Part shown: positions 7,401 to 37,723 of the stretch, piece after piece
Position numbering within the stretch: the first letter of the stretch is position 1
Layout: each line of letters begins with the position of its first letter
DNA from: Lewinellaceae bacterium
GTDB lineage: Bacteria; Bacteroidota; Bacteroidia; Chitinophagales; Saprospiraceae
Reading direction: 5' to 3'
Assembly (NCBI GenBank): GCA_947476195.1
Contig: CANJPT010000034.1
Location: forward strand, 1 to 38,263
Length of the DNA: 38,263 nucleotides
Notes under the pieces: generated by a model
What the model was told of the DNA's origin: nothing
The model's database searches: none
The model's input: only the letters and a program-made list of their open reading frames with translations
Position numbers and translations under genes: made by a program

Positions 7401-7914
7401 TGTAAATGCCATCGCCGTTGAAAACGTTGGAAGGCATATTAGGGTCTCCAGTACCTGCATACACAACATTGGAATTAGATGGATCGAATGTAATGTCGCC
7501 AATAGAAAGTTCAGCGCTTTCGTCAAAAACAGGATGCCAGTTTACAGCGCCATCCGTGCTTTTGAATATTCCACCTCCTGAAAATCCGGCAAGCACCGTA
7601 TTCTCATCATCAGGCTTTGCAGCCAGGGTATTGCACCGACCGCCAACATTCATAGGGCCTTGCTGTGTCCAATTGGTCAGGTTGGTACCGCAATTGAGTT
7701 CGCGGGATTGAGCCGTTTCAGAAATTCGGGTTTGCTGCATGGTTTTGCGCCAGCCTTGCCAATCAAAATCGAAGTCGGGATAAGAACGCTGGAAAGCAAA
7801 CAGGTCGTATGGCTCACTTTTTCTGTCGAGGGCGTTGGTGTGCGGGAGGTTGTTTTTTCCGCAAGCGAACAGGATTAGGGTAAAAAATATCGGGTAAGAG
7901 AGATGCTTGATCAT
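4477..7914 (-). CDS. BNR/VPS10-type beta-propeller protein with dockerin, cohesin-like and T9SS sorting domains
   Basis: 1145 aa surface protein. The N-terminal segment MIKHLSYPIFFTLILFACGK resembles a signal peptide with a possible lipobox (LFAC). Residues about 60-700 hold many BNR/Asp-box repeats (STDGGNSW, SSDAGETW, TTDGGATW, SIDGGNTW, SDDNGNTW) as in sortilin/VPS10-like and xyloglucanase propellers; no catalytic function can be assigned. A small beta module then leads to a dockerin (about 800-856; loops DNPINGVTTYD and DANHSGSITTFD), a cohesin-like domain (about 940-1050, with AAQFSIQFDPTKLVFEKIVP) and a C-terminal T9SS domain (1075-1145; FPNPFG, AVFDANGRLVFSK, PGVYFW). The dockerin-cohesin-sorting cassette closely resembles the end of the 2734 aa protein at 29519-37723. 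Export across the outer membrane by T9SS is inferred from the C-terminus. Confidence 0.9.
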   Translation of the reverse strand: MIKHLSYPIFFTLILFACGKNNLPHTNALDRKSEPYDLFAFQRSYPDFDFDWQGWRKTMQQTRISETAQSRELNCGTNLTNWTQQGPMNVGGRCNTLAAKPDDENTVLAGFSGGGIFKSTDGAVNWHPVFDESAELSIGDITFDPSNSNVVYAGTGDPNMPSNVFNGDGIYKSSDAGETWHHLANSPTGIVSKVIVHPTNPSVIWAATMGNPYVRDNQRGIYKSTDGGNSWQQVLFVSDQSGASDLVQSPANPLILYASFWDRIRNNFESVIYGPHARVYKSIDGGNTWTQLAGGLPTGVMGRTGLAISLTNPNKVYVVYMDSLSTPGELYKTTDGGATWTPINIIQLEDTCGDFGWYFGKIRTNPVDDEELYFLGIQMWRKPSGNSGWFNAGSGHADCHDLIFTQSGRRYWSNDGGVYRNDGQVSWTKSLNLPVTQFYRTNFNPHEPDKYWAGAQDNGIQKGNGLNPNNWTSIFTADGFSCAFDPVNAQHFWVEIQNGAIHETTDGGNSWQFGSGALSTSDRTNWDTPFFMSPNIPNRLYAGTYRVYGKDAGGGWGILSGDLTDGNIFGARFHTISCLNESPVAVNKLIAGTSDGNVWRREPAGAWTNISSGLPERYVTSVQYSTSVSNRLFVSHSGYRDNEQIPRIHRSDDNGNTWQDISSNLPQVPVNDLSILPGYSDQVLFAATDAGVYFTTTGGLTWDRVGGNMPYIPVFDLELNPIRKELVAATFARGIWTFPFDSVLVQQNPVTVSLEGKIKDEMGTGVIEVNMDGTLSAADGTFSLPNVPGCAPHTLAPYRNDNPINGVTTYDLVLISKHILGIETLSSPFKIIAADANHSGSITTFDIVQLRKLILGIDSKFANNTAWRFVPSSHTFDNALNPFQSPFPETLAVQVLTNPISNLDFTAIKTGDVNNTAIPNLSVAAEERTQGEWPLMVDWLSGENGRTVASAFPEKGFVEASFSIPAADLIAAQFSIQFDPTKLVFEKIVPLVPGLSTENFGLNQVGQGILSFSYFSDDLQSAMYSGLFKIVFRVKEDVQLNTQLSLANWPTLALMYRSDGAALRPVLDQAEDLVKTFPNPFGLGGTWISAGSFEKIAVFDANGRLVFSKNLVQKEAIHLESGLFPHPGVYFWQMGKQSGKFVFAP

Positions 7915-12405: not shown

Positions 12406-14850
12406 TCACTTTACTACCGTCAACTTCCGTACAAAGACCTGATTCTCAATCTTAAAAGAAATTGTATACAATCCAGCCGGGCTTTGAGTCAGATCGATCG
12501 GAAGATTCAGTACGGCGGTTTGCATCGGTTGATTTTTCCAGATCAAACGCCCGGCACTATCCCGTATATCTACCTGAATTGTGGCGGTTTTGTGGAGTTT
12601 CAAGAAAAGGGATGCCAGACCTTTGGTTGGGTTGGGCGAAACCTGAAATTGCTCAAAGAGGGCGGCTTCATCTGTCCCGGAAGTCGTACTTACATGGGCA
12701 ATTATTATACTGCTACAGCCTGTTGGGACATCGGTGACCGTGACCGTATAATTACCACCCGTCAGCGCCGAGAGGTCTTCTGTGGTCGCAGCATTGCTCC
12801 ATAAGTAGGTGAATGGGCCAATACCACCATCAGTAGACAAGTCTATAGCGCCGTTGTTTGCATTCGGGACGGTTTCGTCTGTTGTCACAACTGAAAGCAC
12901 AACGAGGGTAGTGGATAAAACATCTACAGCATCGGTGGCGGAGCATGCGCCGAGGGTCACAACCACCACATAATTTCCTGGAGAAAATGTAGTGGGGTCG
13001 GAGAAAGTGGACGTGAAATTATTGGGCCCTGTCCAGGCATAGCTTGCACCTGGATCGTTATTGCCACTCTGGAGTTGAACTGGCAAGTTAAAGCAGTTAA
13101 GCGAGAAACCACTTGCCGTTGCATTCACCTGAGGTGGAAGTGCAAATACAATAGATTCGATCGGGCCAATCGCATTGTTCGCATATATACCTCCACCAGG
13201 AGACGTGACATTTCTGATGGCCCGGACCTGATAATACAGGGTGTCTGGTACAGGACTATTGTCTGTATAAGTGGTTCCGGTAACCAGGTTAGTGGTCAGC
13301 CGGGTATAAGGGCCGTCTTGCGATAAAGCGCGGTAAATATGATACCCTGCTACAGAATCTTCGGAAGCCTTCCAGTTAAGTTCTACACTGTGGCAATTCT
13401 GATTGGACACTGTAAACTCAGTTGCCGGTTTCAACACATGAGCGCGGAGGGTCGGATCGCCCAATAAAACCATATGTGCCCCACCCTTCCCGAAAGAATT
13501 CATGTATCCGGTATTGTATTGCGCATTCATCGTCTCTTTAGTGCAATATCCAATGGATTCGCCAGAAGCAAGTGCCTGATTGAACCAGTGCGGCCTGCCG
13601 GCCCAGGAACAGGTGAGAATCCCGCCCCGGGACGCCAATGCCGAAGGCAAAAACGGATCGCTTTCGTAATCCCAGTCGCCAAAATATGATCCAAACATAT
13701 TGGAAAACACGATATTAATGGTATCGGTGGCAAAGTTTGAGCTCGAGCCCACACCGCCCGCTCCATTGTAATTTCCGCCGCCACAGCCGTATCCAAGCAG
13801 GTAGGATTGAGATTCGGTGCCTTCAAAAAAATCTGTTTCTACAATATTGGCCTCCCCTACCAAAGGATAAGCATTGCGAAAGCCATTGGATCCGAAAGCC
13901 TCGCCACCGAAATAGCCAAAGTTATCGTCCACCAGAGCCTTGTTTTCCACAGGATAATCGCCAATGCGCCACTTGTGATCCTTATCCAGATACCGTCTCA
14001 TCAGTCCGATCTGGTCAGCTTCCCCAAAAGCGATTGCATTGATATGGCGAAAATCCACCCGACCAATTTGCAGTTCTACCACACCTGGCAAATAACTCTG
14101 GTCAAATTTGCCATCGCCGGGGATATTGACATTTGCAGCTCGGCCTGGGGTGATGTTGTTCACGGTCGTATCCGTCCAGTTGCCATTCACATCCGCATAA
14201 TAGGCATCCGAAGGCCAGGCGCCCTGGTGGTCTCCATGCCCATCCCAGGCAGTATTGCCTGAGTATGGGATAGGTATCGTCCCAAGTAGCAGTACCGCTT
14301 TCACCTTGGTGGGGTCGGCGTTGTAGGAAGCAACGATCTGATCTTTAATGGATTTTACTGTCGCGTAAGGCCCGGTATGAAAGGGAATGGGCCACCAGCC
14401 ATCGCCGCGCAGGTCGTTTTTCAGTCGAACGAGTTGAGGCCCCAAGGCATCCGCCGTGGTCGAGTCCACGAAGATCAGAATCTTCCCCCGGCTATCAATC
14501 ACGTTGGCATTGATGGCTACATGTGCATATCCAAATGCGTTGAGGCTGTTGATATTCCGTTGAATCACATATTCATACACCTGCCCTGCCGTCACACCGT
14601 TGTCTATAACCGAGGTAAGATTTGAGCTGGCCAGGTTGATGATCTGAGTCCAGGCGGAACCGCCTAGCCCCTTGGTCCTGCGTCGGATCAGGAGTCCGGC
14701 ATTGCCTGGATTGACCCAGTTGAGGGTGACCGTGGGTCCTGCGGCAACAGTGGCCGTGAGTGGCACGGTTACGTCTTTGGAGGTTTGGGCCTGTAACGAG
14801 TTGAAACTCAGAAAGACGAATGAAAACAGGAAAGTAGAAAGTAGTCTCAT
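12406..14850 (-). CDS. Gingipain-like (C25 family) paralogue, presumed catalytic His replaced
   Basis: 814 aa, a tandem paralogue of the gene at 8162-12214, very similar over the first 580 residues: signal peptide (MRLLSTFLFSFVFLSFNSLQAQ), Fn3-like domain, caspase-like region (about 127-500), and second Fn3 domain. Cys414 (GGILTCSWAGRP) and LLGDPTLR are kept, but the equivalent of the presumed catalytic His is Phe390 (GSYFGDWD, codon TTT at 13683-13681). After the core it has only one Ig-like repeat (from about 580) and one SprB-like repeat (645-720) before the T9SS sorting domain (737-814, VSPNPTKG to KLTVVK). It may be a non-catalytic, binding or regulatory version. The start is firm because the signal peptide begins at the first ATG. 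Confidence 0.85.
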   Translation of the reverse strand: MRLLSTFLFSFVFLSFNSLQAQTSKDVTVPLTATVAAGPTVTLNWVNPGNAGLLIRRRTKGLGGSAWTQIINLASSNLTSVIDNGVTAGQVYEYVIQRNINSLNAFGYAHVAINANVIDSRGKILIFVDSTTADALGPQLVRLKNDLRGDGWWPIPFHTGPYATVKSIKDQIVASYNADPTKVKAVLLLGTIPIPYSGNTAWDGHGDHQGAWPSDAYYADVNGNWTDTTVNNITPGRAANVNIPGDGKFDQSYLPGVVELQIGRVDFRHINAIAFGEADQIGLMRRYLDKDHKWRIGDYPVENKALVDDNFGYFGGEAFGSNGFRNAYPLVGEANIVETDFFEGTESQSYLLGYGCGGGNYNGAGGVGSSSNFATDTINIVFSNMFGSYFGDWDYESDPFLPSALASRGGILTCSWAGRPHWFNQALASGESIGYCTKETMNAQYNTGYMNSFGKGGAHMVLLGDPTLRAHVLKPATEFTVSNQNCHSVELNWKASEDSVAGYHIYRALSQDGPYTRLTTNLVTGTTYTDNSPVPDTLYYQVRAIRNVTSPGGGIYANNAIGPIESIVFALPPQVNATASGFSLNCFNLPVQLQSGNNDPGASYAWTGPNNFTSTFSDPTTFSPGNYVVVVTLGACSATDAVDVLSTTLVVLSVVTTDETVPNANNGAIDLSTDGGIGPFTYLWSNAATTEDLSALTGGNYTVTVTDVPTGCSSIIIAHVSTTSGTDEAALFEQFQVSPNPTKGLASLFLKLHKTATIQVDIRDSAGRLIWKNQPMQTAVLNLPIDLTQSPAGLYTISFKIENQVFVRKLTVVK

Positions 14851-16981: not shown

Positions 16982-19603
16982 TCAATGATTTAGAGAAAGT
17001 GCCTCAATGCTTAAACGATGCCCTTGGGCATCCAATAAAACGCCCCAATAAAGACCGGAAGGTAGTTGTGTCAAATCCAATGATAGGTTCCGTGTTCCTG
17101 CAGTCAATTCAATACTTTGTACTTTTTGGCCGTAGGCATTTATAACTACAAACGATGTGGCCATGCTTGGAGACAAGGAAACTTCTACCAGCCCGCTGCT
17201 GGGATTGGGCGTAATGATGAATGCTGCTAAGCCAATAGCCTTGCTATCTTCATGCAGAGCAGGGCCACGTTGTGATACCTCTCCATCCGGATCGGGGAAG
17301 AGATATCGGTCGCAAAGGGCTACGAAATTGGCAGCAGACCTAACCGCTTTACCCGCTATGGCGGGGTCAAGTTGTGCTAAAGCAAGAATCTGTTGATAGT
17401 ATACCTGCGTCATTGGCACCTGAAGCAAGCGGTGTAGCCAAATGTCGTACAACGCCTTATTAGCAGCCTCATAGGCTTGGGATGTGGAGATTCCCGCATT
17501 GTAAGCCAAAACATTTTGCAAATTTGTGATTACCTGGGCGTTCCGTGCTATTTCCAAAGCATCAAGATTGGCAGTGTTGGCCATCAAGGGTTGTAGTAGT
17601 ATCTGCCGTGTCGCAAACCAGATTTCTGTCAAATTACTGGTGGTGGCATAATTCTGAACGGCATCCCAAGTGCTCAAATTTTCTGCCGCTTGTTTGGCTG
17701 ATGTATTATAGTTGTCAAATAACTGCTGATCAGTAGCCGAAATGGCCAAACTACCTGCAAGTGTTTGTATCACTTGGCCAAAGGAGGCAATGCTTGTATT
17801 AGCAAGGCTGCTCAAAAACGTCGCCTCGGGAGAACCCACAGGTCGCAATTCCGGGCGGAGCAGCAATTTTGTATAGGTTCGTAGCTTCAAATCCCAAAGG
17901 GTGGTTCCTGTGTATGTAGAAAGGCCGTCTACCAACTGCTTTTCGTAAGCCGTTAATTGTCGGGGAGATTCGGGCGAAAAGCCTGGGACGCAATAATCAG
18001 TATTGACAGCTTCTTCTCTAAACCAATTCAAATTAGGCCCTAAAACTGTCGGGTTTGGACTTATTTTACCAACATTGGGATAGTACCGGAACGGCGGACT
18101 CGTAAATTCAGGTATCCTAAAAGGCGAAGTTATTACATAAGGCATATTGCCAGGACCAATTGGCACATCATGACGTACTGCCCAGTCAACACAATCACCT
18201 GAAGCAGTGTTCCATGTGTTTCCTCGGCCAACTTGTGGGCCTACCCCAGGCATATCATTCGCAGAAATTCCAGAAATATCTAATCCTATGGTATGGTGGT
18301 GCATGTGGTTTTGGCGCAAGGCCACATCGCCACAGTCATTTTTAAAATGCAGACCCCTATAGGAAGTATCTACTATGTTGTCACAGTAACTTATGCCTTG
18401 TACAGATTCGCTGTGTATCGCGCAGGTGAGCGAGTTGATTGATACATCATGGCCAGTTACGGTGTTATGTTTCACCATATGTCCTTGAGATGCGTTTGGG
18501 CCGACTACATTGACGGGCTTAATTACAATGCCAAAGCTACCAAACCCTGACGCAGGAGAAGTGCCATAGGTTATGGTGTTCTCTTCAATTAGGAGCTTAT
18601 CCGAATTCCCCAGCACAGCACTAATGCCATAAACAGGGTTGAACATCGAGTTGACATTTATCGTATTCCAGGTTATCGTTGCTACATCGGTAGCATTAAC
18701 AAGGTCTAATAATTCGATGCAGGTAAATCCTTCAACATTAGCTCCTACCGTAAATGTATTGTGATCTATCATGCAGTGTTTTACATTTTGCGATGCTTGG
18801 GATCTCTCTACAAGAATTCCAAATTCCCAAAGGCTACCTAGGATGTTGAACTGATTTTGATTCCCAATGCCAATGCCTTGAGCATGTAAGTTGTTAACAG
18901 CATGAATACCTCCTACCCAATTTCCGCCGAAAACATTGTTTTGTGCACTAAGGCTTGTTCCATCAGTAAATATACAAACACCACTACCTAGTCCAAAAGT
19001 GCAGTTTAGAACACTGATAAAAGCGGCTTGAAAACTCCAAATTCCGTGGTCGGAAATCCGTTCATAAATATTATTGACAGAGGTTATATTACACCTATAA
19101 CCTTCGGTAATTAAGCCATTGAGAGTTGCTCCTGATGCATCCACGATCATTCCTTGCCACATATCAGTGCAACTATAAAGGTCGCAGTTTTCGAATGTGA
19201 CATTGATCGGGTCAGTGCCGATGGGGGTAATTTTGATTCGAGCATCGCCGGACATTCTAAATGTACAGTTCTTAAAAGTCGCACCTATTGTAAGCGTGTA
19301 GGTGCCTGCAATCTCAATCACCTTGTTTTCGACAAGGCCTCCAGGCGGTATCCCGGAATTTTTTGAAGGTACTCCTCCTGACCAGCAATAGCCTTCCGAG
19401 CAGATTGCTTGAGGCTCATCACAGCTGCGGGAGCCATTTAGACAACTCGGGGTAGGTGAAAGTTCAGGAGGGCAAGGGTTGTAAGGCGGCTCAGTCCCTT
19501 GTGTCCTTGCAGTGCTGGGTGCTAACAGGGAAATTAGGATCATAGCCGTAACTAGTCTAAGAAGCCGTGAAGTCGTGAAGCCGTGAGGTAAAATCTTTTT
19601 CAT
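16982..19603 (-). CDS. Right-handed parallel beta-helix T9SS protein
   Basis: 873 aa. The signal sequence is long (residues 1-34, hydrophobic core LVTAMILISLLAP). Residues about 85-500 are a series of short N-rich beta-strand coils (FENCDLYSCTDMWQG, SVLNCTFGLGSG, HCMIDHNTFTVG, LLIEENTITYG, YCDNIVDTSYRGLHFKN) typical of pectate-lyase-like parallel beta-helices. No catalytic site is recognised. A predicted helical stretch (about 555-780, repeated Leu/Ala-rich segments) comes before the T9SS sorting domain (796-873; FIITPNPSSGLVEVSL, VINAYGQKV, LPSGLYWGVLL). A word repeat in the DNA encodes part of the signal peptide n-region (HGFTTSRLL). Likely the first gene of a two-gene unit with the PKD protein. 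Role may be adhesion or glycan binding; uncertain. Confidence 0.88.
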   Translation of the reverse strand: MKKILPHGFTTSRLLRLVTAMILISLLAPSTARTQGTEPPYNPCPPELSPTPSCLNGSRSCDEPQAICSEGYCWSGGVPSKNSGIPPGGLVENKVIEIAGTYTLTIGATFKNCTFRMSGDARIKITPIGTDPINVTFENCDLYSCTDMWQGMIVDASGATLNGLITEGYRCNITSVNNIYERISDHGIWSFQAAFISVLNCTFGLGSGVCIFTDGTSLSAQNNVFGGNWVGGIHAVNNLHAQGIGIGNQNQFNILGSLWEFGILVERSQASQNVKHCMIDHNTFTVGANVEGFTCIELLDLVNATDVATITWNTINVNSMFNPVYGISAVLGNSDKLLIEENTITYGTSPASGFGSFGIVIKPVNVVGPNASQGHMVKHNTVTGHDVSINSLTCAIHSESVQGISYCDNIVDTSYRGLHFKNDCGDVALRQNHMHHHTIGLDISGISANDMPGVGPQVGRGNTWNTASGDCVDWAVRHDVPIGPGNMPYVITSPFRIPEFTSPPFRYYPNVGKISPNPTVLGPNLNWFREEAVNTDYCVPGFSPESPRQLTAYEKQLVDGLSTYTGTTLWDLKLRTYTKLLLRPELRPVGSPEATFLSSLANTSIASFGQVIQTLAGSLAISATDQQLFDNYNTSAKQAAENLSTWDAVQNYATTSNLTEIWFATRQILLQPLMANTANLDALEIARNAQVITNLQNVLAYNAGISTSQAYEAANKALYDIWLHRLLQVPMTQVYYQQILALAQLDPAIAGKAVRSAANFVALCDRYLFPDPDGEVSQRGPALHEDSKAIGLAAFIITPNPSSGLVEVSLSPSMATSFVVINAYGQKVQSIELTAGTRNLSLDLTQLPSGLYWGVLLDAQGHRLSIEALSLNH
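19558..19588. repeat. GTGAAGCC word repeat inside a coding start
   Basis: The plus strand reads GAAGCCGTGAAGTCGTGAAG followed by CCGTGAGG, that is three near-copies of an 8-9 base word. On the minus strand this encodes residues 7-15 (HGFTTSRLL) of the beta-helix protein, ahead of its hydrophobic signal core. Confidence 0.8.
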
Positions 19604-21622: not shown

Positions 21623-24019
21623 ATGAAATTAGTACAGCTATTTTTTGCGCTTTTTTTGGGTTCCATTTCATTCAACGCAATGGCCCAATGCCCTACGGGG
21701 AGTGATTCCATCCGGGTAGAAATCAACCATAACAACTACTTTGCTGAGATCAGTTGGGCAATCACCAATGTTGACGGGAATATTGAATATGGTGCAGGTG
21801 CGCTACAGGACTCTACTACCAATGTTTTTATTTGCTGTGTGCCTGCAGATGAATGTGTAAAATTTACGATTTTCGGCGATGTTGCTGGTCTTTTCCCGGA
21901 TGGATGGTATCGCCTTTATGTAAACGATACGCTTGTATATTCACGGCTCAACGGCAGTTTTAAAACAGCGACGGAAAGTGTAGTGTTAAATTGCAGCCCT
22001 GGCACTTCTTGTGTTAGCCCCATTAATCTCAGTCTTGGCGCGGGTACTACCCCAACAGGAGGTGACACCTGGTTCTGCTTTACTCCGTTGGATACAGGCA
22101 GCTATGTTTTCGCTACTTGTGATGCAGTCTGCCCTACCAAAATCTGGGTCTATGATCGTTGCGCAGGTATTTTTGTTTCTGAAATTCAATTGGGTACCAT
22201 CGCATATTCCTTGGACGGATGTCCGGACAGTTCGGCTTCAATACACGTCAATTTGGAAGGCGGAAAAACATACTATTTCAGGGTACGCTATCAGGAAATT
22301 GGCTGTAGCCCTGTACCCATCCCTTACACCCTTGCCTTTTTAGGACCTGTGGTTGGCTGCCTGGACCCCAACGCTTGCAATTATGAGCCATTGGCTACCA
22401 GCAGCAGTGGAATCTGTATTTACCCTGGCGACCCGGCTTGTCCCAATGCGCCCGATTTTCAGATGAATCAGGCTTATCTGCTCAGTACGCTCGAACTTGC
22501 GGATATGTACAACGCCGATGCCTGTTTGATAGACGCAGGCTGTTTGCGCGGGCTGGGAACCAGGTATATCATCCGGTTTGCTACCCAGATCTCAAACATT
22601 GGCGATGAAGACTACTATATTGGGAAACCACCTGAAAACATCAATGAACCTTCCACCCAATTCGTATACGATCCCTGCCATGGGCATTGGCACTACATGG
22701 GCTATGCCGAATATATCTTATACAATTCAGAGGGCTATCGGGTGCCTATTGGCTCAAAAACCGGATTTTGTGTATTAGATGCCTTTTGTTTCGGAGTAGA
22801 GCGGAAATACAATTGTATCAATATGGGTATTTCAGCGAGCTGTGGCGATGTTTATGGCGCAGATACACCCTGCCAATGGATCGACATCACAGATCTCCCT
22901 GCAGGCAGCTACACCATGGTCGTGCGGGTAAACTGGGATAAAAGTCCTGACAAACTCGGCCGCGTAGAAAAAAAATACGACAACAATTGGGCACAAGCCT
23001 GCTTCACACTTTTGTATGATGGCAACACCCCTGAGGTGATTTTCAACACCGACTCTTGTGAGCAGTTTACCGACTGCACCGGGGAGGTGTTTGGCAATGC
23101 ACTCCCTGACTGCAACGGCGTTTGTAAAGGACCTGCGCTCATGGGCGACTGGAACCAGGATACCCTGCGCAACGTAGCAGATGTGAGCGCTTACCTGGCT
23201 GCTTCTCTTGCTGAAAACGGTTCTCCAACCTCCTGTAATGACCTCCACGAAGACGCTGTAATCAATGTCTTCGATGCCGCCTTGCTTCAGGAGTGCAATC
23301 TTTACAACAACGACCAGCAGCACTGGATTCAACGTTTCCCCTGCCAATTCCCAACTGGCTTTCTCAACACACAGGATATGGTGACCATCCAGCCAGGGAC
23401 CCTGGACACCCTTGCAAAAACTTTCGAGATCCTGATAGCCAATCCAATCAACAAGGTTATGGCCTATGAATTCGCCGTAAGCGGTATCGTGATCGAATCG
23501 GTAGAAAACCTTGCGCCAGAATATCTGACGGTACCGATGTTTAACCCGGCCAACGGAAAAATACTTGCCCTTGCTGCCGATGAGTCATGTATCAAAAAGA
23601 ACTTCACTCCTAACCCTTTTCTGCGCATACATTATTCAACCTTGACAGATCATCAAGTATGCGTGTCGAAAATTATAGCAGTGGTGAGCGACAAATACCA
23701 ACAAAGCAACGCCACGCTCGCTGATCCAAATTGTGTACCTGTGAACTACGTGTCCGTTGGTGAGCCAGGATCTGCCTCTTTTGCGGTATTTGTGCAGCCC
23801 AATCCCATGCGCGAAAGCACCACGGTATTTTTTGAAAACCCAAACGCTGAGCCAATGACGTTTACTTTAACTGATTTGACCGGTCGTACCCTGCGTTCTT
23901 TTAGCGATCTATGTGGCCAGTCTATTTCTGTTGAACGGTCCGGACTGCCTGCTGGCACCTACTTTTTCAATCTTTGCAGCAGTCGTGGCAGTGTGAGTGG
24001 GAAACTGATCATGCTGTAA
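21623..24019 (+). CDS. Secreted lysyl oxidase homologue with PPC, dockerin, cohesin-like and T9SS domains
   Basis: 798 aa from the ATG at 21623, which begins the signal peptide MKLVQLFFALFLGSISFNAMA; the frame extends to a TTG at 21515 with no signal-like sequence. Order: N-terminal beta domain (25-125), PPC-like domain (130-243), a GCLDPNACNYEP cysteine motif (244-), the lysyl oxidase domain (about 280-465), dockerin (507-560; DWNQDTLRNVAD and DLHEDAVINVFD loops), cohesin-like domain (about 590-690) and T9SS sorting domain (721-798; VQPNPMRE, LTDLTGRTL, LPAGTYFFNL). In the oxidase core, DPCHGHWHYMGY gives the HxHxH copper motif (His353, 355, 357), Lys379 (SKTGFCVLD) and Tyr411 (CGDVYGADTPCQWIDITD) match the two residues that form the LTQ cofactor in animal enzymes, with closely similar spacing. 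It would oxidise lysyl side chains to aldehydes using copper and oxygen. Confidence 0.88.
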   Translation: MKLVQLFFALFLGSISFNAMAQCPTGSDSIRVEINHNNYFAEISWAITNVDGNIEYGAGALQDSTTNVFICCVPADECVKFTIFGDVAGLFPDGWYRLYVNDTLVYSRLNGSFKTATESVVLNCSPGTSCVSPINLSLGAGTTPTGGDTWFCFTPLDTGSYVFATCDAVCPTKIWVYDRCAGIFVSEIQLGTIAYSLDGCPDSSASIHVNLEGGKTYYFRVRYQEIGCSPVPIPYTLAFLGPVVGCLDPNACNYEPLATSSSGICIYPGDPACPNAPDFQMNQAYLLSTLELADMYNADACLIDAGCLRGLGTRYIIRFATQISNIGDEDYYIGKPPENINEPSTQFVYDPCHGHWHYMGYAEYILYNSEGYRVPIGSKTGFCVLDAFCFGVERKYNCINMGISASCGDVYGADTPCQWIDITDLPAGSYTMVVRVNWDKSPDKLGRVEKKYDNNWAQACFTLLYDGNTPEVIFNTDSCEQFTDCTGEVFGNALPDCNGVCKGPALMGDWNQDTLRNVADVSAYLAASLAENGSPTSCNDLHEDAVINVFDAALLQECNLYNNDQQHWIQRFPCQFPTGFLNTQDMVTIQPGTLDTLAKTFEILIANPINKVMAYEFAVSGIVIESVENLAPEYLTVPMFNPANGKILALAADESCIKKNFTPNPFLRIHYSTLTDHQVCVSKIIAVVSDKYQQSNATLADPNCVPVNYVSVGEPGSASFAVFVQPNPMRESTTVFFENPNAEPMTFTLTDLTGRTLRSFSDLCGQSISVERSGLPAGTYFFNLCSSRGSVSGKLIML

Positions 24020-29474: not shown

Positions 29475-29529
29475 AGGCCGGGTGTATTGTTATTCTGGGT
29501 GGGGACAAACCCCACCCCCTACCGGGCCT
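29475..29529 (-). terminator. GC-rich hairpin at the end of the 2734-residue gene
   Basis: Nested inverted repeats around the stop codon at 29519: the inner stem GGTGGGG/CCCCACC (29498-29504, 29510-29516) and the outer arms AGGCCGGGT/ACCGGGCCT (29475-29483, 29521-29529; one mismatch). There is no T-tract, so it may be a processing or stability hairpin, or an interspersed palindrome, rather than a terminator. Confidence 0.5.
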
Positions 29530-32500
29530 GAATCATCTTCTTAGTAGCACTATCCGTAGCCGTTTCCAACTTGTAGTACAGCAATCCAGTTGTATTGATC
29601 AGCGCACGATCGAGCGAGATGCTATTCTCGCCTTTCGCAAACTGGCCTTTTTGTTGGTACACGACCCTACCCGTTTCGTCAAACACCGATAACGTTGCTT
29701 CAGCTGCATCTGGAAGGTAGAAACCAATCAAAGTCTTGTTCACAAACGGATTTGGCTGGTTCTGGTACAACTCGAAACCTACCCCTGAGATCGTCTTGCC
29801 GTCGAAACGGAAAGCCACACCGAGGCGTGACATTAGGTCATTGGCTGCGTACGCCTCAGCTCTGGTGATCGAGCCAGATACGCCCAGCATCTGGCTCAAC
29901 TTGCCAGCTTTCTCAGCCCGAAAACGTACTGTGAACGACTGTGCTCCGTCAATCGAAACCGACATAGCATTTTCTGGCAACAGGTTGAAGTTGTTAACTG
30001 AAACATTCTCCCCCTCAACGATACCAATGGCCGTCAATCCATCAAGGGCTAAAGTGAACTGAAAGCCCTTGAGATCCTGGGCAGATTTGAAAGTTACCTC
30101 AAAGGTCTCTCCCGCTTTTACGTCGCGGTCCTGGACCTCGAACAGGGCCGTCCCAACAGTCCGCTCTTCCGCCTGTATCGTGGCATTCGCCACCGCGGAA
30201 TAGTTCACATCCCCAATTTTAACACCCATGAAATTTTCATACATGTGGTTCGTCAAAGCAGCGGCAATCGAAATAGTTTCGGGGAATGTCGTCGCAAATG
30301 GGTTATTTGAATTTGGGAAGACGAAGCCATGGTCTACAAAACGCCATGAATTGTTGTTAGGAAGGTCGGTGTATATACCCAGAATCAACTTGCGGAGCTC
30401 TACAATGTCAAATGTAGTGATTGAACCAGACTTGTTGGCGTCAGCAGCGATTATTTTGTACGGCGAGTCCAATGATTCAATAGCAAGAATATGCTTAGAG
30501 ATCAACACCAGATCGTAGGTAGTAACTCCATTGAGCGGATTGTCATTTTTCTCTGGTGCAATCGTAAAGTTGGCATCAAGTGAAAGATGGTTCATCACCT
30601 GGTACACACCGTCCTGATCGGTAAGGTCAAAGTAAGAATATGGCGGTGCAAAGGTACTAGTACCTGCTATTTGTACCGTCACTTCTTCCACCCCTGCAGC
30701 CATTTCGGTCTCCAATCGACCTCCAACATTGATGTGACCGCTTGTAGGGCAGGTATTCAAATTATCCTGAACAATCACATAAGTTTCACAATAATCAGCA
30801 TTACCTGCGGCGTCTATAGACCAGATCTCCACACATTGAGTGCCAAGTTCCGTACAATCGAACGTCACGTTTGTAATTGGATTGCCGTTGTTATCCACAG
30901 GGAACCCAATTCCGGTGCCACACTTGCGAACACCGATCTTCAATTGAGCAGCAGGGGTACAGTTATCTTCTGTATACTGCAGGAAATCAGATGCCCACAA
31001 CTGTATCATCCCGGTAGGCATAATGTTTACACTCAGACCATTCAGACATACAATGGTTGGTGCTTTGCAGTCTTTAATCGTGAAATTATATTCGCAAACC
31101 GATTGGTTGCCACAACCATCCTGTAAGATCCACTTGATTTTGTGCGTTCCATACGGAAATTCCGGTATGGAATAAGCATTCGGAGATTGTGTCGTATTCC
31201 AACGCACAGAAAAGCTCTTTTTGGTGCCTGTAACATTGAGGTGCTGCTCCAGCGCAAACTGGTAGGTTTGATTGGTGGGTAGCCCCCTGTTGTCAAATGC
31301 CCGCGGTGTACCTCCTCCAAAATTAGGGGTATTTACATTGCCAAAATAAACAATCCCTGGCGGTGGTGGGTTCAGGCTGTTCACGACAGTTTCCATCGTT
31401 CCATCCTGGTCGAGGTCGAGGAAAAGCAGGTAATTTGCCATAATATTCGAACCTGAGCAAACGTCTCGACCTGCGATTGCAAGATCAGCCGGACCTTCGC
31501 AGAGGTTATGCGTTTGTATTGTATTGTCCCACCATTCAGTATCATTCCATTGGCCTGTACTATTGACCGTTATATCGCAGATGCTGGTATCAGAAGGGCA
31601 ATGATCCAATTTGGGTGCCTTACCATCTAGGATTTTAATAATCTGCTTATACTGGTAGCAATTGGCATTGGCTTGCCAAAAGGTGCAATAGTCTGTTGCA
31701 GCCGGGTCACTTGGACTTATTTTGACAACTGTTGATTTCCAGGGCGGCAAAGTACCACAAGCTGAAACAGTAGGACCCTGCAGGTTTGCTATATTGTTGG
31801 TGTTTACGTTCGGGCTCGGATTTGGCACGTAAATACAGCCCAGATTCGGATTGTACGTACACCAGTTAATGACAGTCCAGTTCCGTTCTATCTTGAAGCA
31901 TGCATCAGGCACTACCGTGAATATTTCATCTTCGTAGCTAATACCCAAGAGTTCACAATCCTCGCCAAAAAACTTAGGCCCATCATATCGGGCCGAATCG
32001 TCGCACACGGTTACAATTACATCGTTCGGGAATCGCAGGAAATAATCCTGCAGGTAAGTTACCACTACCCGTTGAGTACACTGACTGCTTTGTCCCTGGC
32101 AGTCAAATGCCCTGAAAGTTCGGGTGATCGTACCCTTGTTGCAAACGGTATCAAACAAGGCGTAATTTACCGAGTGTGTCAGACCTTCCTGGCCCTGATA
32201 AATTTTTGTATCGTCCAGACAGCAATTGTCGTCAACTGCGGCGATGCCATAGACCCAAAGGCTTGGATCAAAGTTCTCGCAATTGACCGTTACAGCCGCA
32301 GGAGGTAAACAGGAGGGCTTAATCTTGTCCTGTACTGCTGCCTGTACGATGCAATCGTTTGTATTCCCACTACAGTCGGTGACGCGGAAGGTAACCATGA
32401 TTATCTCGCCTACATCCCGGCAATTGAAACTCACGGTTGACTCAAAGCCTGCACCACGCGATACCGTAAATTCTTCCAGGCAACAGTTATCGTAAGAGCC

Positions 32501-35500
32501 ATTGTCAAAAGTCGAGGCATTCACCACTGCTTCACCGTTGTCGGTGAGCGCTACTGTGGTGAACTGGTCGCATACAGCTACAGGTGGAATAAGATCTTGA
32601 ACGATGAGCTTGAATGAACAGGTTGTGTTATTCCCACAATCGTCTTCAGCCATATATGTTACCGTCTGGGTGCCAATCTGCAGACAAGGCGTAGAGCCAA
32701 ATGCTGCCATTGTATCCCGGTTCCACCAGTTATTCCCTGGAAAATCCTGGAGTGTTCCTCCAAAGGTATACGAGCCGGTTTGTTCTCCAGTGCTGGGATC
32801 AAAGGTCACGATTGTCCCGCCGATATTGTTCACGCGGGAGCACTCGTCTTTGATGATGATATTTGGAAGATCAATCGTACCACAGCAAGTGAATGGATCT
32901 ACCGACACCGTTTTGTTGGGCGGACAGGTCATTGCCGGGCCTTGCTTATCCTCCACTTTGATGAGCTGTTCGTACTTAATAACGCCTGTTGCGCAGGCGT
33001 TAAGGGCGGTCCATTTTCGGTTAATCTTGTAAGTACCATCACAGACTGGGATGAGTACATCTTTAAATACCCAGTTAAAGTTGCAGCCATCTGGTTTGCC
33101 AAAAACATAGGGATATCCTTGTAAACCCTGGCTTTCAATCCAATCAGGGGATGGATAGGCTGCTGTGCAACCGAAGCTTGGTGCCTGCAGTCCGTCGTAA
33201 AATGGCGGAAACTTCAGGTCGGCCAATGTCGGACGGGTCAAACTGATCGTTTGGATACAAGTAGAGGAGTTACCGCTTGCATCGATGGTCGTCCATTTGC
33301 GCGTAATAATCTTAGTTAAACCCGAAGCACAATCTTTCGGTATTTCCGAGTCGTTGTAAGTCAGGGTAAAGGTCTGACAGTCTGTTACCGTTGGGAGGGC
33401 AGCTGATATTCCCAGAGAATTGAACAGGTAATTGGCGCTAAGATCTGTGGTATTACAAGGCACAGCAAAATTCGTGCACATCAATACAGGAGAGAGTTTA
33501 TCCTCCACTTTAATATTTCCCCAGCATTTGTTTCCACTGACGAGGTGCGTCACGCGCACCTGGTAAGTTTTGCCAATGTCGCTTGTTACCACGGTTCCAG
33601 GTTCCCATGGACCATTACCAAATGGCAAGGTGCGATCTATCTCGACAATATAATCGTCATAGCAGCCATAGGTACCTTCCAGAATATCATCCGGCAAAAT
33701 ATTTTCCGTGCAATCCGCATCGAGTGACAAATACACCAGGTCATTACAAGTTAGACTGGTAGGAGTAGCCACTACATTGACGTATACAGTGATATCCTGG
33801 ATACATCCGGGATCGTTTGGACCAAAAGCTTTGGGTACCCCGCCATTTACGGAATAAACAATTTTGTATTGGCCCACGCCTTGTCCAGGGTTGAATACCG
33901 TAGCCGGCACACCGTTAATGGTAAAGCCCTGGCTTAAAATATTCGCATCGCCGGGCGTACCTGTGAGGGTTACCGGATTTGAAAACAGGCAAAACGCCCC
34001 GTTTAGGTCAGCAGTAATGGTCGGGTTTGGGTATTCGCAGGAGTTTCCAATGCTTACCGTTTGGCCTAAATCATTTCGCACCGTGATAGAGTACCCGATC
34101 GCATCCACATGAAGCCCGGTGAAATAATAATCGCCGCTATTATTTGGATTTTGGGCAAATAGGGTGCCTATCGGAACCAAAGTTGGGGCGTTAGGCGGGG
34201 GAAGGCTAGTGGAAAGGTAAAGTCCATTGACCGCGATCACCGACCAGGTTTGTCCTGCAAGGCTTTCTATTTTGATGGTTTCCCCAAATTGGCCGTCAGC
34301 CAGGGTTGTAGCATTGTTTTTGCAAACGCATGGGTCTGATATGAGGATCTTAGGTGTGCAACGGTCAAAAGGATTGATTGTCACCTGCGCGGTACAGGAT
34401 GAAGTATTCCCGCATGGATCCGTAGCGGACAGCACAACAGACTGCGTAGTACCCTGATGTAAACAGTTGAAGCTAAAGGGACCCGGAGGTGTCACTACGA
34501 GGTTATTCCCCGGTGAACAGTTGTCACTAACCGATTGAAGCAGTTGCGCCTGTGTAACCACAACAATTCCAAAAATATCAAGATTGACGCTAATGTTTTT
34601 ACAGACGATGCTTGGTCCGGAATTATCCGAAACATTGATTGTTTGGGTGTATATTGCGGTATTTCCACAAGCATCGGTCGTTGACCAGGTACGTTTGATG
34701 ATTTGTGATTGTGCACAAGTACCTGGCATACTGGTCTGTGTAAAGCTCACTGGCAGGCCTACCGGAGGTTGAACCGGGAATGATTGACCCTGGTTTACGG
34801 CATCAGGCGTGGCTGAATTGGCTGCTGATGGCCCGCTCCAGGTAAAATTAGCATATACCGTACCATTGCCAAAAAGCCGCAAAGACTGCCCGATGGCTTC
34901 ATTGCCTGTTTCAGACACCCCTATATCAGTGGAAACCATCCCGTTGGCTGGCCCACCAATCGCTGTCATCACGCCTTCATAACTCAGAAACTGCAAAACT
35001 GTACCACCTTTGACAAAAGCAATGCCATCAGATGGACCATTTTCAATACCCGGAATCAGAAAGGCAATGGTGCCATACCCATTGCTTAGGTTGGGGATAA
35101 CGCCTGTAAGCGGCACGTTCAGATAAGTGCCACCCATATTAGCTGTGCTACCGTTGTACAGGAATAGCTCGTATCCGCTGCCCAGGTTGGTACCGGCGCG
35201 TCCAGCAATCTCAATAAATTCGTTGACATCGTTGCCCGTATTATCGTAGTGTATTTCATTGATCCAGACGGGCCCGTTGATAATACCGGCAGGATCGCAG
35301 GCATCTGTACCAATTACGGAAGGGACTGGAGGGATCGGATCATTACAAGAGATCGTGATATTAGCTGGCTTGGGCGTCAGTACTGGCGCATCCGTATCGG
35401 TTACGGTGATCACCTGTGTGTGGGTGTTTTGGTTGTTACAAGCATCAGACAAGGTCCATTTACGGGTGACGATGCGAGATCCGGCACACTGGCCCGGCAC

Positions 35501-37723
35501 CTCTGTCTGCATAAAGCTTGCAGCATTAGACGCCGGCAATGGATTAATCGTCTGACCTGCATTCAAGGTTCCTGGTGATTGGGCAATAGGGCCTACCCAA
35601 GTGAAATCGGTAGCCACCTTACCAGTTCCCGTCAACTGCAAAGAGAGACCTGCGGCCTCTGTACCAGCTTCAAAAACACCAACATCTGTAGAGAAGATAC
35701 CCATAGCAGGGCCGTCAGTGGCCTGGAAAGGTCCCTCATAACTCAGAAACTGTATGACCTGATTGGTTGAAATGCGATATAGGGCAATTCCATCCGGCGT
35801 GCCGTTTTGAATCCCATTGGCAGGGTAAGCTAAGGAAACTGCGCCGAAGCCATTGCCTTCGTTATCAATGACGCCAACCAAAGGATCTGTGTCATAGACC
35901 ACGCCACCGTTGCCGTTGTATAAGATTATCTGATAATCAGTAAGGTTAATACCCGCAGTACCGGCAACCTCCACAAATTCATTTACATCCGCCCCAATAT
36001 TATCATAGTGGAACTCATTGATAAAAATGACCGGAGGTACTGAGCCGCCGCCGCAATTGTCTGTACCTGTTAGCGCCGGGGCAAGGGGCAGCGGGGCTGT
36101 GCAGGAAATGGTGATGTTCGCTGGTGGCGGCGGGATTGGATTAAAGGTCGGCGCCGTCATGTCCGGAGCGTAGGAATACGTAAGGGTGCACGTAAAACCG
36201 ATCTCGTTGGCATCTTTTACGCCATTCACAGGCGGAAGGTCATCAAATATCGTATAGGTTCTGGTAACGGACGTGGAACTGCAATTGTTAAAGCTGCTTG
36301 TCACCGAAGTGATCGTCAGCATACCACAAAACGTGCCGTTGATACTTCCGCCCAAGGCTTGAAACCCTGCCTGGGTCGTCACCGGCGCTGGAATAGGATT
36401 CGTGCAACTGAACGTACCGCTTGGTTGAGGTGGACAGTTGACCGTGAAGCTGCAATTGCTTGAGCAGCTGAACACCGCGGGGCCGTTGTTCACGGTAAAA
36501 TTGCAAGTAGGGTTCGCACTAAAAGTAGCCGTAACCACACTGGGGGTTCCATCGGCCTTCAGGCGTACGCCCGTAAAAACAGTTGGGCTGGTAAAAGGGG
36601 CTGAAACAGAAAGCGCGCCACCTCCGGCCAGCACATCGCCCGTAAGGGTAAGATTGCCAGTAGCCGGGGCATTGGCAAAGTTTACGGTGATGTTAGCCGT
36701 GAAATAATCGTCTAAAGAATTGGAGCTGGTGCCGTTATCATTGCATTGGCTAACATTCGCAAAAGTAAGAGCAGAAACGCCGCAAGCCAAAGAGCAATTG
36801 CCGACGTTTGGACCATTGTTTTCTGTAAATGCACAACTATTGGTGCTAAAAGTAGCAGTCATCACACTGGGAGTTCCATCAGCCTTCAGACGAATGCCGG
36901 TGAAAACAGTGGAAGTAGCGTTAAAAGGCGCAGCCACAGAAAGCGCCCCGCCGCCGGCCAGCACATCACCGCTCAGGGTTAGATTGCCGCTAGTGGGTGG
37001 ATTGGTATAATTGACGGTGATATCGGCTGTAAAATAATCGTCAGAAGGATCCGAACTGGTACCGTTGTTATTGCAGGAACTAATATTTGCAAACGTAATG
37101 GAACTTAAAGAAGTCTGAACAGCGGTGCCATTGATGATCAGGTCATTGTCCAGGGCGACCACCGACGTGCCAATACGCATCGTACCGCCAGTGCCCGGGC
37201 TTCCACTCACGGCGTTTCCATATCCGTAAAGTCGGAACGTAATGGTACCGGTATTGCCGTTTATGTTGACATTGAAGGTGTTCAATACAGATGCGGCGGT
37301 CACAGGCGCTGTGCCCAGATCGGCCGCATATCCGTCAATACTGCTTCGAAGCGTGGCGGTATTTGGGCCTGTGTTGGAACTACGCAGCACAATCTGCACC
37401 GTCGTAATATCCGCCCTGTAACAACTTTGAATTGGGAGTGTGAACTCGTAATATTCGTTGTTAGCAACGGCATCGGCAAGCGTAGTGGGAACACCCGCTG
37501 TATTAAACCAGCCAGAAGAACTGATAGAACCTGCAGCAGCAGCAGCCGTGACACCTGCCCCGCGTTGCAGGATGCCAACGTTTATCCCGGCTGCATTGGT
37601 CGTAGCGTTGTTGGAGACCTGGTTGCCAGCCTGCGTGCTAAGTTCCCATGCTTCCAGTTGGGCAAAGGCGATTTGAGCAAAAAGAAGCGCTAACAGGAGG
37701 AGTAATCCTTTTTTCATATGCAT
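29519..37723 (-). CDS. Giant multidomain T9SS surface protein (LTD, HYR-like, dockerin, cohesin-like)
   Basis: 2734 aa. The signal peptide is MHMKKGLLLLLALLFAQIAFAQ (a second ATG at 37717 could be the start). Order: N-terminal beta domain (25-200); two similar ~110-residue repeats (about 205-310 and 316-420; ITFANISSCNNNGTSS / LTFANVSQCNDNGTSS, each with LKADGTPSVM/VTATFS); Cys-rich HYR-like domains in which two lamin-tail domains are embedded (564-712 INEFHYDNIGADVNEFVEVA; 818-965 INEIHYDNTGNDVNEFIEIA); many more HYR-like repeats with the pattern C-P...D.CGN..C (to about 2290); a dockerin (2394-2448; DNPLNGVTTYD, DANKSGSITTFD); a cohesin-like domain (2521-2618); a T9SS sorting domain (2654-2734; QPNPFVNKTLIGF, VFDETGRVVY). 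Likely a long cell-surface fibre or adhesin. No enzymatic motif seen. Confidence 0.92.
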   Translation of the reverse strand: MHMKKGLLLLLALLFAQIAFAQLEAWELSTQAGNQVSNNATTNAAGINVGILQRGAGVTAAAAAGSISSSGWFNTAGVPTTLADAVANNEYYEFTLPIQSCYRADITTVQIVLRSSNTGPNTATLRSSIDGYAADLGTAPVTAASVLNTFNVNINGNTGTITFRLYGYGNAVSGSPGTGGTMRIGTSVVALDNDLIINGTAVQTSLSSITFANISSCNNNGTSSDPSDDYFTADITVNYTNPPTSGNLTLSGDVLAGGGALSVAAPFNATSTVFTGIRLKADGTPSVMTATFSTNSCAFTENNGPNVGNCSLACGVSALTFANVSQCNDNGTSSNSLDDYFTANITVNFANAPATGNLTLTGDVLAGGGALSVSAPFTSPTVFTGVRLKADGTPSVVTATFSANPTCNFTVNNGPAVFSCSSNCSFTVNCPPQPSGTFSCTNPIPAPVTTQAGFQALGGSINGTFCGMLTITSVTSSFNNCSSTSVTRTYTIFDDLPPVNGVKDANEIGFTCTLTYSYAPDMTAPTFNPIPPPPANITISCTAPLPLAPALTGTDNCGGGSVPPVIFINEFHYDNIGADVNEFVEVAGTAGINLTDYQIILYNGNGGVVYDTDPLVGVIDNEGNGFGAVSLAYPANGIQNGTPDGIALYRISTNQVIQFLSYEGPFQATDGPAMGIFSTDVGVFEAGTEAAGLSLQLTGTGKVATDFTWVGPIAQSPGTLNAGQTINPLPASNAASFMQTEVPGQCAGSRIVTRKWTLSDACNNQNTHTQVITVTDTDAPVLTPKPANITISCNDPIPPVPSVIGTDACDPAGIINGPVWINEIHYDNTGNDVNEFIEIAGRAGTNLGSGYELFLYNGSTANMGGTYLNVPLTGVIPNLSNGYGTIAFLIPGIENGPSDGIAFVKGGTVLQFLSYEGVMTAIGGPANGMVSTDIGVSETGNEAIGQSLRLFGNGTVYANFTWSGPSAANSATPDAVNQGQSFPVQPPVGLPVSFTQTSMPGTCAQSQIIKRTWSTTDACGNTAIYTQTINVSDNSGPSIVCKNISVNLDIFGIVVVTQAQLLQSVSDNCSPGNNLVVTPPGPFSFNCLHQGTTQSVVLSATDPCGNTSSCTAQVTINPFDRCTPKILISDPCVCKNNATTLADGQFGETIKIESLAGQTWSVIAVNGLYLSTSLPPPNAPTLVPIGTLFAQNPNNSGDYYFTGLHVDAIGYSITVRNDLGQTVSIGNSCEYPNPTITADLNGAFCLFSNPVTLTGTPGDANILSQGFTINGVPATVFNPGQGVGQYKIVYSVNGGVPKAFGPNDPGCIQDITVYVNVVATPTSLTCNDLVYLSLDADCTENILPDDILEGTYGCYDDYIVEIDRTLPFGNGPWEPGTVVTSDIGKTYQVRVTHLVSGNKCWGNIKVEDKLSPVLMCTNFAVPCNTTDLSANYLFNSLGISAALPTVTDCQTFTLTYNDSEIPKDCASGLTKIITRKWTTIDASGNSSTCIQTISLTRPTLADLKFPPFYDGLQAPSFGCTAAYPSPDWIESQGLQGYPYVFGKPDGCNFNWVFKDVLIPVCDGTYKINRKWTALNACATGVIKYEQLIKVEDKQGPAMTCPPNKTVSVDPFTCCGTIDLPNIIIKDECSRVNNIGGTIVTFDPSTGEQTGSYTFGGTLQDFPGNNWWNRDTMAAFGSTPCLQIGTQTVTYMAEDDCGNNTTCSFKLIVQDLIPPVAVCDQFTTVALTDNGEAVVNASTFDNGSYDNCCLEEFTVSRGAGFESTVSFNCRDVGEIIMVTFRVTDCSGNTNDCIVQAAVQDKIKPSCLPPAAVTVNCENFDPSLWVYGIAAVDDNCCLDDTKIYQGQEGLTHSVNYALFDTVCNKGTITRTFRAFDCQGQSSQCTQRVVVTYLQDYFLRFPNDVIVTVCDDSARYDGPKFFGEDCELLGISYEDEIFTVVPDACFKIERNWTVINWCTYNPNLGCIYVPNPSPNVNTNNIANLQGPTVSACGTLPPWKSTVVKISPSDPAATDYCTFWQANANCYQYKQIIKILDGKAPKLDHCPSDTSICDITVNSTGQWNDTEWWDNTIQTHNLCEGPADLAIAGRDVCSGSNIMANYLLFLDLDQDGTMETVVNSLNPPPPGIVYFGNVNTPNFGGGTPRAFDNRGLPTNQTYQFALEQHLNVTGTKKSFSVRWNTTQSPNAYSIPEFPYGTHKIKWILQDGCGNQSVCEYNFTIKDCKAPTIVCLNGLSVNIMPTGMIQLWASDFLQYTEDNCTPAAQLKIGVRKCGTGIGFPVDNNGNPITNVTFDCTELGTQCVEIWSIDAAGNADYCETYVIVQDNLNTCPTSGHINVGGRLETEMAAGVEEVTVQIAGTSTFAPPYSYFDLTDQDGVYQVMNHLSLDANFTIAPEKNDNPLNGVTTYDLVLISKHILAIESLDSPYKIIAADANKSGSITTFDIVELRKLILGIYTDLPNNNSWRFVDHGFVFPNSNNPFATTFPETISIAAALTNHMYENFMGVKIGDVNYSAVANATIQAEERTVGTALFEVQDRDVKAGETFEVTFKSAQDLKGFQFTLALDGLTAIGIVEGENVSVNNFNLLPENAMSVSIDGAQSFTVRFRAEKAGKLSQMLGVSGSITRAEAYAANDLMSRLGVAFRFDGKTISGVGFELYQNQPNPFVNKTLIGFYLPDAAEATLSVFDETGRVVYQQKGQFAKGENSISLDRALINTTGLLYYKLETATDSATKKMIQAR
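36480..37100 (-). repeat. Two-copy internal repeat in the giant gene
   Basis: Two copies of about 300-330 bases, roughly 36480-36780 and 36790-37100, encode the repeats at residues 205-310 and 316-420. Long stretches match closely in DNA, for example CCGGCCAGCACATC (36628 and 36955 regions) and the TTCCATC(A/G)GCCTTCAG segment, while third positions differ elsewhere. This indicates a duplication old enough to have drifted. Confidence 0.75.

Follow-up and report, generated by a model that had tools for sequence, protein, structure and literature searches.

Known lysyl oxidases and the gene studied

Lysyl oxidase (LOX) was reported in 2015 from Bacteroidetes, four other bacterial groups and Archaea; that survey leaves the bacterial role open and describes most of the prokaryotic proteins, all except three, as a LOX domain alone, with or without a signal peptide or membrane region (PMC4448552). 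The archaeal enzyme HTU-LOX is described in another study as active after truncation and refolding and relaxed in specificity; that study calls prokaryotic LOX enigmatic in both properties and functions (PMC6452851). Here we analyse a 38,263-nucleotide contig of a Lewinellaceae bacterium (CANJPT010000034.1, assembly GCA_947476195.1; hereafter the window), in which translation and Pfam delimit the entire gene of a LOX exported by the type IX secretion system (T9SS) at 21623..24019 on the forward strand. The frame encodes 798 residues and its sole stop is the terminal one; amino acid numbers below refer to this translation, and coordinates to the whole stretch.

Our favoured reading is a T9SS-exported surface LOX that is active and mainly cross-links protein lysine. 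We place its probability at roughly 0.55, because the protein is very probably an active enzyme of the copper and lysine tyrosylquinone (LTQ) type, by analogy with studied LOX enzymes, and because cross-linking as the main role of such an active enzyme has somewhat better than even odds. Bacterial LOX being already known, what appears new from sequence is the multidomain, T9SS-exported form with dockerin and cohesin-fold modules; we hold this variant to be new because, among open-licence PubMed Central records that mention lysyl oxidase alongside type IX secretion, dockerin or Saprospira, none has a title that points to such a protein. The original prediction noted that lysyl oxidases are best known from animal extracellular matrix; a bacterial one is less surprising than this implies, given the published Bacteroidetes LOX and the archaeal LOX refolded to activity.

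Catalytic domain and active site

The catalytic domain occupies residues 275-470 (22445..23032, +), as delimited by Pfam, by comparison with human LOXL2 and by predicted fold. The Pfam Lysyl_oxidase hidden Markov model (HMM; PF01186), the first check proposed for this gene, scores 98.6 bits over residues 311-468 (E 5e-28; cut-off 20.4 bits). In a phmmer search of solved structures the protein matches LOXL2 (5ze3; E 1.2e-21), copper histidines and LTQ lysine and tyrosine all being in register. Aligned over 175 columns, the domain is 36% identical to LOXL2, and its predicted model has a lysyl oxidase fold. At E <= 0.001, PF01186 matches one place only in the source genome and none of 14 control genomes. 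The HMM score, the LOXL2 register, the single genomic match and the empty controls together confirm that the match at this gene is real and not a chance result.

The motif HGHWH begins at residue 353, just after Cys352, and places the putative copper site (HxHxH) at His353, His355 and His357 (22679..22693, +). Lys379 (22757..22759, +) and Tyr411 (22853..22855, +) align with LOXL2 Lys653 and Tyr689 and are the predicted LTQ precursors. These residues and their spacings of 22 and 32 were correctly given in the original prediction, as was the near-animal character of CQWIDITD from residue 417, which reads CQWVDITD in LOXL2. Pfam, the LOXL2 alignment and conservation concur on a complete LOX catalytic domain with its copper and LTQ residues.

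Conservation was assessed in 82 sequences: the window copy, L022 and 80 named loci, the latter being the best 80 of 407 stretches encoding a relative in a scan of named genome contigs, from which records very close to the window's genome may be missing. The five core residues (three histidines, Lys379, Tyr411), together with Asp409, Gln418 and Trp419, are kept in 82 of 82, and so are eight cysteines (301, 307, 352, 383, 389, 398, 407, 417). The conservation of Cys352, the histidines, Lys379 and Cys383 is partly selected because the scan patterns contained CHxHxHY and G-K-GFC motifs, 80 of the 82 having been retrieved with two patterns, one of them HxHxH; Tyr411 and the remaining cysteines lay outside this selection. 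Independently, the five core residues are invariant in all 21 members of an HMM-retrieved set (the window copy and its 20 best-scoring relatives). Alignment and residue counting equate the eight cysteines with LOXL2 573, 579, 625, 657, 663, 673, 685 and 695, which are reported to pair as disulfides 573-625, 579-695, 657-673 and 663-685 (PMC9180022). The cysteines of four of the five animal disulfides are present in all 82 sequences, and the fifth disulfide (732-746) falls beyond the LOXL2 excerpt compared.

The distance between Lys379 and Tyr411 in a predicted model had been put forward as a means of refuting the assignment. It is not a valid one, because in the LOXL2 precursor crystal a distance of 16.6 angstrom separates the corresponding lysine and tyrosine (PMC9694262).

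Export signals and accessory modules

A putative signal peptide (residues 1-21; 21623..21685, +), recognised by eye and overlapping a model helix at residues 2-17, would direct Sec export and leave Gln22 as the mature N-terminus. At the other end lies a T9SS type A C-terminal sorting domain (residues 726-796; 23798..24010, +), identified by Pfam (Por_Secre_tail, E 1.6e-7) and NCBIfam and consistent with the predicted fold, which upholds the export signal proposed originally. The source genome yielded 150 scored T9SS tails (150 of 361 candidates were scored in the genome scan) and encodes T9SS machinery, with SprA at 2274.6 bits and GldL at 120.6 bits over two pieces in a search limited to these components.

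Between the catalytic domain and the tail lies a dockerin (residues 506-560; 23138..23302, +). Across 80 aligned rows D509 and D520 are invariant and D540 and D551 are kept in at least 90%, positions that we take to be the calcium ligands, and the predicted model has helices at 518-530 and 549-561. The window copy alone has no Pfam dockerin match up to E 10; matches occur in 23 of 80 relatives at E 0.01. A family profile finds short cellulosomal-enzyme chains (best E 0.0026), one of which is named dockerin and the others of which are presumably dockerins. The predicted dockerin is thus supported by ligand positions, relatives and profile, its own copy lacking a Pfam match. The module that follows (approximately residues 582-713; 23366..23761, +) appears from structural comparison of its model to have a cohesin fold: among the 41 best structural rows, 38 are titled cohesins, with 5-14% identity in the cohesin rows. 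PF00963 (cohesin) matches 0 of 80 relatives at E 0.01 and nothing here in a genome scan at E 0.1, so that the cohesin-like module of the original prediction is borne out by fold and not by Pfam. All 81 loci of 81 examined have the dockerin-cohesin unit.

Seven other open reading frames (ORFs) of the genome likewise have a dockerin match ahead of a cohesin match, with both over cut-off in four; these are the window ORF at 4477-7914 (-), which also carries sortilin/BNR-type repeats, and ORFs on contigs C1, C5, C7, C11, C92 and C178. This order is possibly a common surface-assembly cassette of the genome.

Two modules precede the catalytic domain. The first, N1 (residues 22-126; 21686..22000, +), is beta-rich and unnamed; lenient blastp finds it in 70 of 82 sequences, and no Pfam family is common to more than 1 of 40 relatives scanned. 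For the second, N2 (residues 125-243; 21995..22351, +), residues 130-245 are matched in 81 of 82 sequences by the same lenient search. The PPC module predicted originally finds no support in Pfam; this region is instead nearest to PF23759 (GBD_T9SS_assoc), a T9SS-associated, galactose-binding-like family found in 10 of 40 relatives scanned and not in the window copy. The N2 profile also has weak matches to the hemagglutinin component HA70/HA3 (E 0.008 to 0.05), taken as a common beta fold. A Cys-rich segment (residues 246-274; 22358..22444, +) is recovered in 82 of 82 sequences by a lenient search with residues 245-276, and a Cys-rich linker after the catalytic domain (residues 479-502; 23057..23128, +) has Cys479, Cys497 and Cys501 invariant in 80 aligned sequences.

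Distribution and relatives

By title, the 80 named loci comprise 29 Saprospiraceae, 7 Chitinophagales bacterium and 9 Flavobacteriales, the remainder bearing other Bacteroidota titles except one (L090) titled only 'bacterium'. The nearest named relative, a Saprospiraceae bin (L025), is 80% identical in the LOX domain; across relatives identity drops to about 50% in this domain and about 28% in the dockerin-cohesin region. Phaeodactylibacter xiamenensis KD52 (L096), a named strain and no metagenome bin, carries the window-type LOX. PF01186 matches 33 of 60 genomes in a near-relative set, made up of the window's own, 24 of 36 others of the genus and 8 of 23 others of the order (some of these weakly). 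In a phylum-wide draw it matches 4 of 395, again counting the window's own; two of the other three have a second LOX type.

This second, divergent Bacteroidota type (type B), seen at L023 and L024, has PGHxHxH, Lys and Tyr present by eye and lies apart from the window type (type A) in the tree. Genome G037 has five LOX-domain matches, G047 four, G049 three and G045 two, which are local family expansions; the ORFs of G045 are about 1600 residues long. In five Flavobacteriales loci (L076, L086, L088, L091, L100) LOX and the dockerin-cohesin region lie within ORFs of about 1900-2250 residues. On viral contigs 36 stretches fit a pattern, none encoding a relative. Five plasmid records matched (4 Streptomyces, 1 Gemmatirosa), of which three were compared, the window domain being 28.8% identical to Gemmatirosa and 24% to two Streptomyces. 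Foreign origin of the gene was considered and rejected: its GC fraction (0.479) resembles that of the window (0.474), giving no sign of recent transfer by such a crude measure.

The tree contains 37 rows, namely 31 of the 82 type A sequences, LOXL2 as the only animal sequence, two Streptomyces, Gemmatirosa and two type B. In it LOXL2 groups with Bacteroidota type A (93/83); the node is unstarred, branches are long and the bootstrap is unsettled. Approximately unbiased (AU) tests do not reject a placement of LOXL2 beside Gemmatirosa (p 0.19), beside Streptomyces (p 0.47) or beside type B (p 0.29).

Gene neighbourhood

A divergent START-domain gene lies upstream, followed by dapB. On the downstream side, the LOX strand carries a gene for a 616-residue T9SS protein without other named domain; beyond it come lpxB and a gene for an Omp28-like protein on the opposite strand. 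For each of the 80 named loci we compared up to 6 kb of flank, often ended by a contig end (which limits neighbour counts), by blastp of six window neighbours at E 1e-8 and by all-against-all clustering. The START gene recurs at 11 loci, the downstream T9SS gene and lpxB at 3 each, Omp28 at 2 and dapB at 1; the protein at 16982-19603 recurs in 0 of 80 flanks. Neighbour conservation thus fades fast, and no family-wide gene partner or substrate gene emerged from these flanks. The two largest flank clusters (54 and 15 loci) were set aside as apparently antisense or out-of-frame LOX readings, judged from one example each.

Elsewhere in the window, 12406-14850 (-) encodes a T9SS protein that matches Peptidase_C25 (gingipain-like) and the SprB repeat, and 29519-37723 (-) a 2734-residue protein with 88 cysteines and LTD, HYR, dockerin and T9SS-tail matches, only HYR being over its cut-off.

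Proposed function and alternatives

By analogy with studied LOX enzymes, the exported protein would load copper on His353, His355 and His357 and build LTQ from Lys379 and Tyr411. It would then oxidise primary amines to aldehydes, with lysine side chains of extracellular proteins as the likeliest substrates and with H2O2 and ammonia released; the aldehydes may condense with neighbouring amines and so stiffen a layer of protein surrounding the cell. Towards the C-terminus, the dockerin-cohesin unit could keep the enzyme off the cell or bound to other surface proteins. A surface-matrix role, as proposed originally, is a reasonable inference, and suggests that such bacteria may be able to staple proteins chemically outside the cell. 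A bolder version, which we regard as unlikely, sees in Saprospiraceae and their kin among Bacteroidota a true covalent system of matrix hardening, in which LOX, exported by T9SS and held by dockerin-cohesin contacts between surface proteins (compare the seven other ORFs with this module order), would staple that lattice via allysine, a counterpart of animal connective-tissue maturation, possibly in the lineage nearest the source of animal LOX.

Several points weigh against an active cross-linking enzyme. LOXL2 His623 and His652 are replaced by Asp350 and Ser378; substitution of either lowers LTQ below 50% (PMC9694262), and PMC4448552 reports the first of them absent from bacterial LOX. There, Grau-Bove et al. 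argue from mutant data that losing the first histidine leaves some activity. Full-length HTU-LOX was inactive and cultured H. turkmenica showed no amine oxidase activity (PMC6452851); from this and the enzyme's specificity, prokaryotic LOX may use other substrates or act rarely. Within the genus the gene is patchy (24 of 36 other genomes), no neighbour gene is conserved past near relatives in the 80-locus flanks, and the genome has a single collagen match, below cut-off.

The best-surviving alternative, to which we assign a minor share of probability, is a scavenging amine oxidase that wins nitrogen by deaminating polyamines, small amines or lysyl peptides in its surroundings, with no structural role. 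Taurine and glycine are among the various primary amines on which HTU-LOX acts (PMC6452851), and another study mentions peptidase activity linked to Saprospiraceae epiflora (PMC11495043); however, the dockerin-cohesin unit of all 81 loci and the T9SS tail favour surface retention over free diffusion, and no catabolic gene recurs beside LOX in the flanks compared. Very unlikely, in our estimate, is an enzyme of antagonism or protection, whose H2O2 would harm competitors at the surface or which would deaminate amine antibiotics. HTU-LOX was active on several aminoglycosides and polymyxin in an assay that measured H2O2 release (PMC6452851), but no gene recurs beside LOX across the family, and neither Pfam, for the window neighbours scanned, nor PADLOC, for LOX and its six neighbours (seven genes), detected a defence gene, or Pfam an immunity gene. 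Least likely of all is a catalytically dead LOX fold retained as a binding module, which the two missing LTQ-aiding histidines would suit, but which is at odds with the persistence, in 82 of 82 sequences, of all five core residues and of the eight cysteines of the disulfides while the domains around them diverge to the identities given above.

For the favoured surface LOX, the window-type subfamily makes prokaryotic LOX function testable, its architecture predicting action at the cell surface, and Phaeodactylibacter xiamenensis KD52 as a named-strain holder adds to this. With its eight common disulfide cysteines, the subfamily offers a nearer comparison for animal LOX than do the Streptomyces and Gemmatirosa enzymes compared, and may give structural studies of LTQ formation a protein that is easier to handle.

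Comparison with known systems

Compared with animal LOXL2 (5ze3), the window protein is bacterial, lacks equivalents of His623 and His652 and the SRCR modules, and adds dockerin, cohesin-fold and T9SS modules. It shares the His, Lys and Tyr core with HTU-LOX and with the LOX described in PMC4448552, the bacterial ones among which likewise lack the His623 equivalent; unlike most of those, which with three exceptions have a single domain, it is multidomain, in an order common to the relatives compared. The Streptomyces and Gemmatirosa plasmid LOX (L107, L108 and L106) have the three His, Lys, Tyr, Asp409 and Gln418 positions, whereas Gemmatirosa keeps 4 of the 8 disulfide cysteines and the two Streptomyces 1-2, at 24-29% identity. 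With cellulosomal dockerins and cohesins it shares the dockerin ligand pattern and profile match and, from the predicted model, the cohesin fold; unlike in cellulosomes, a single chain carries both modules as well as an oxidase and a T9SS tail.
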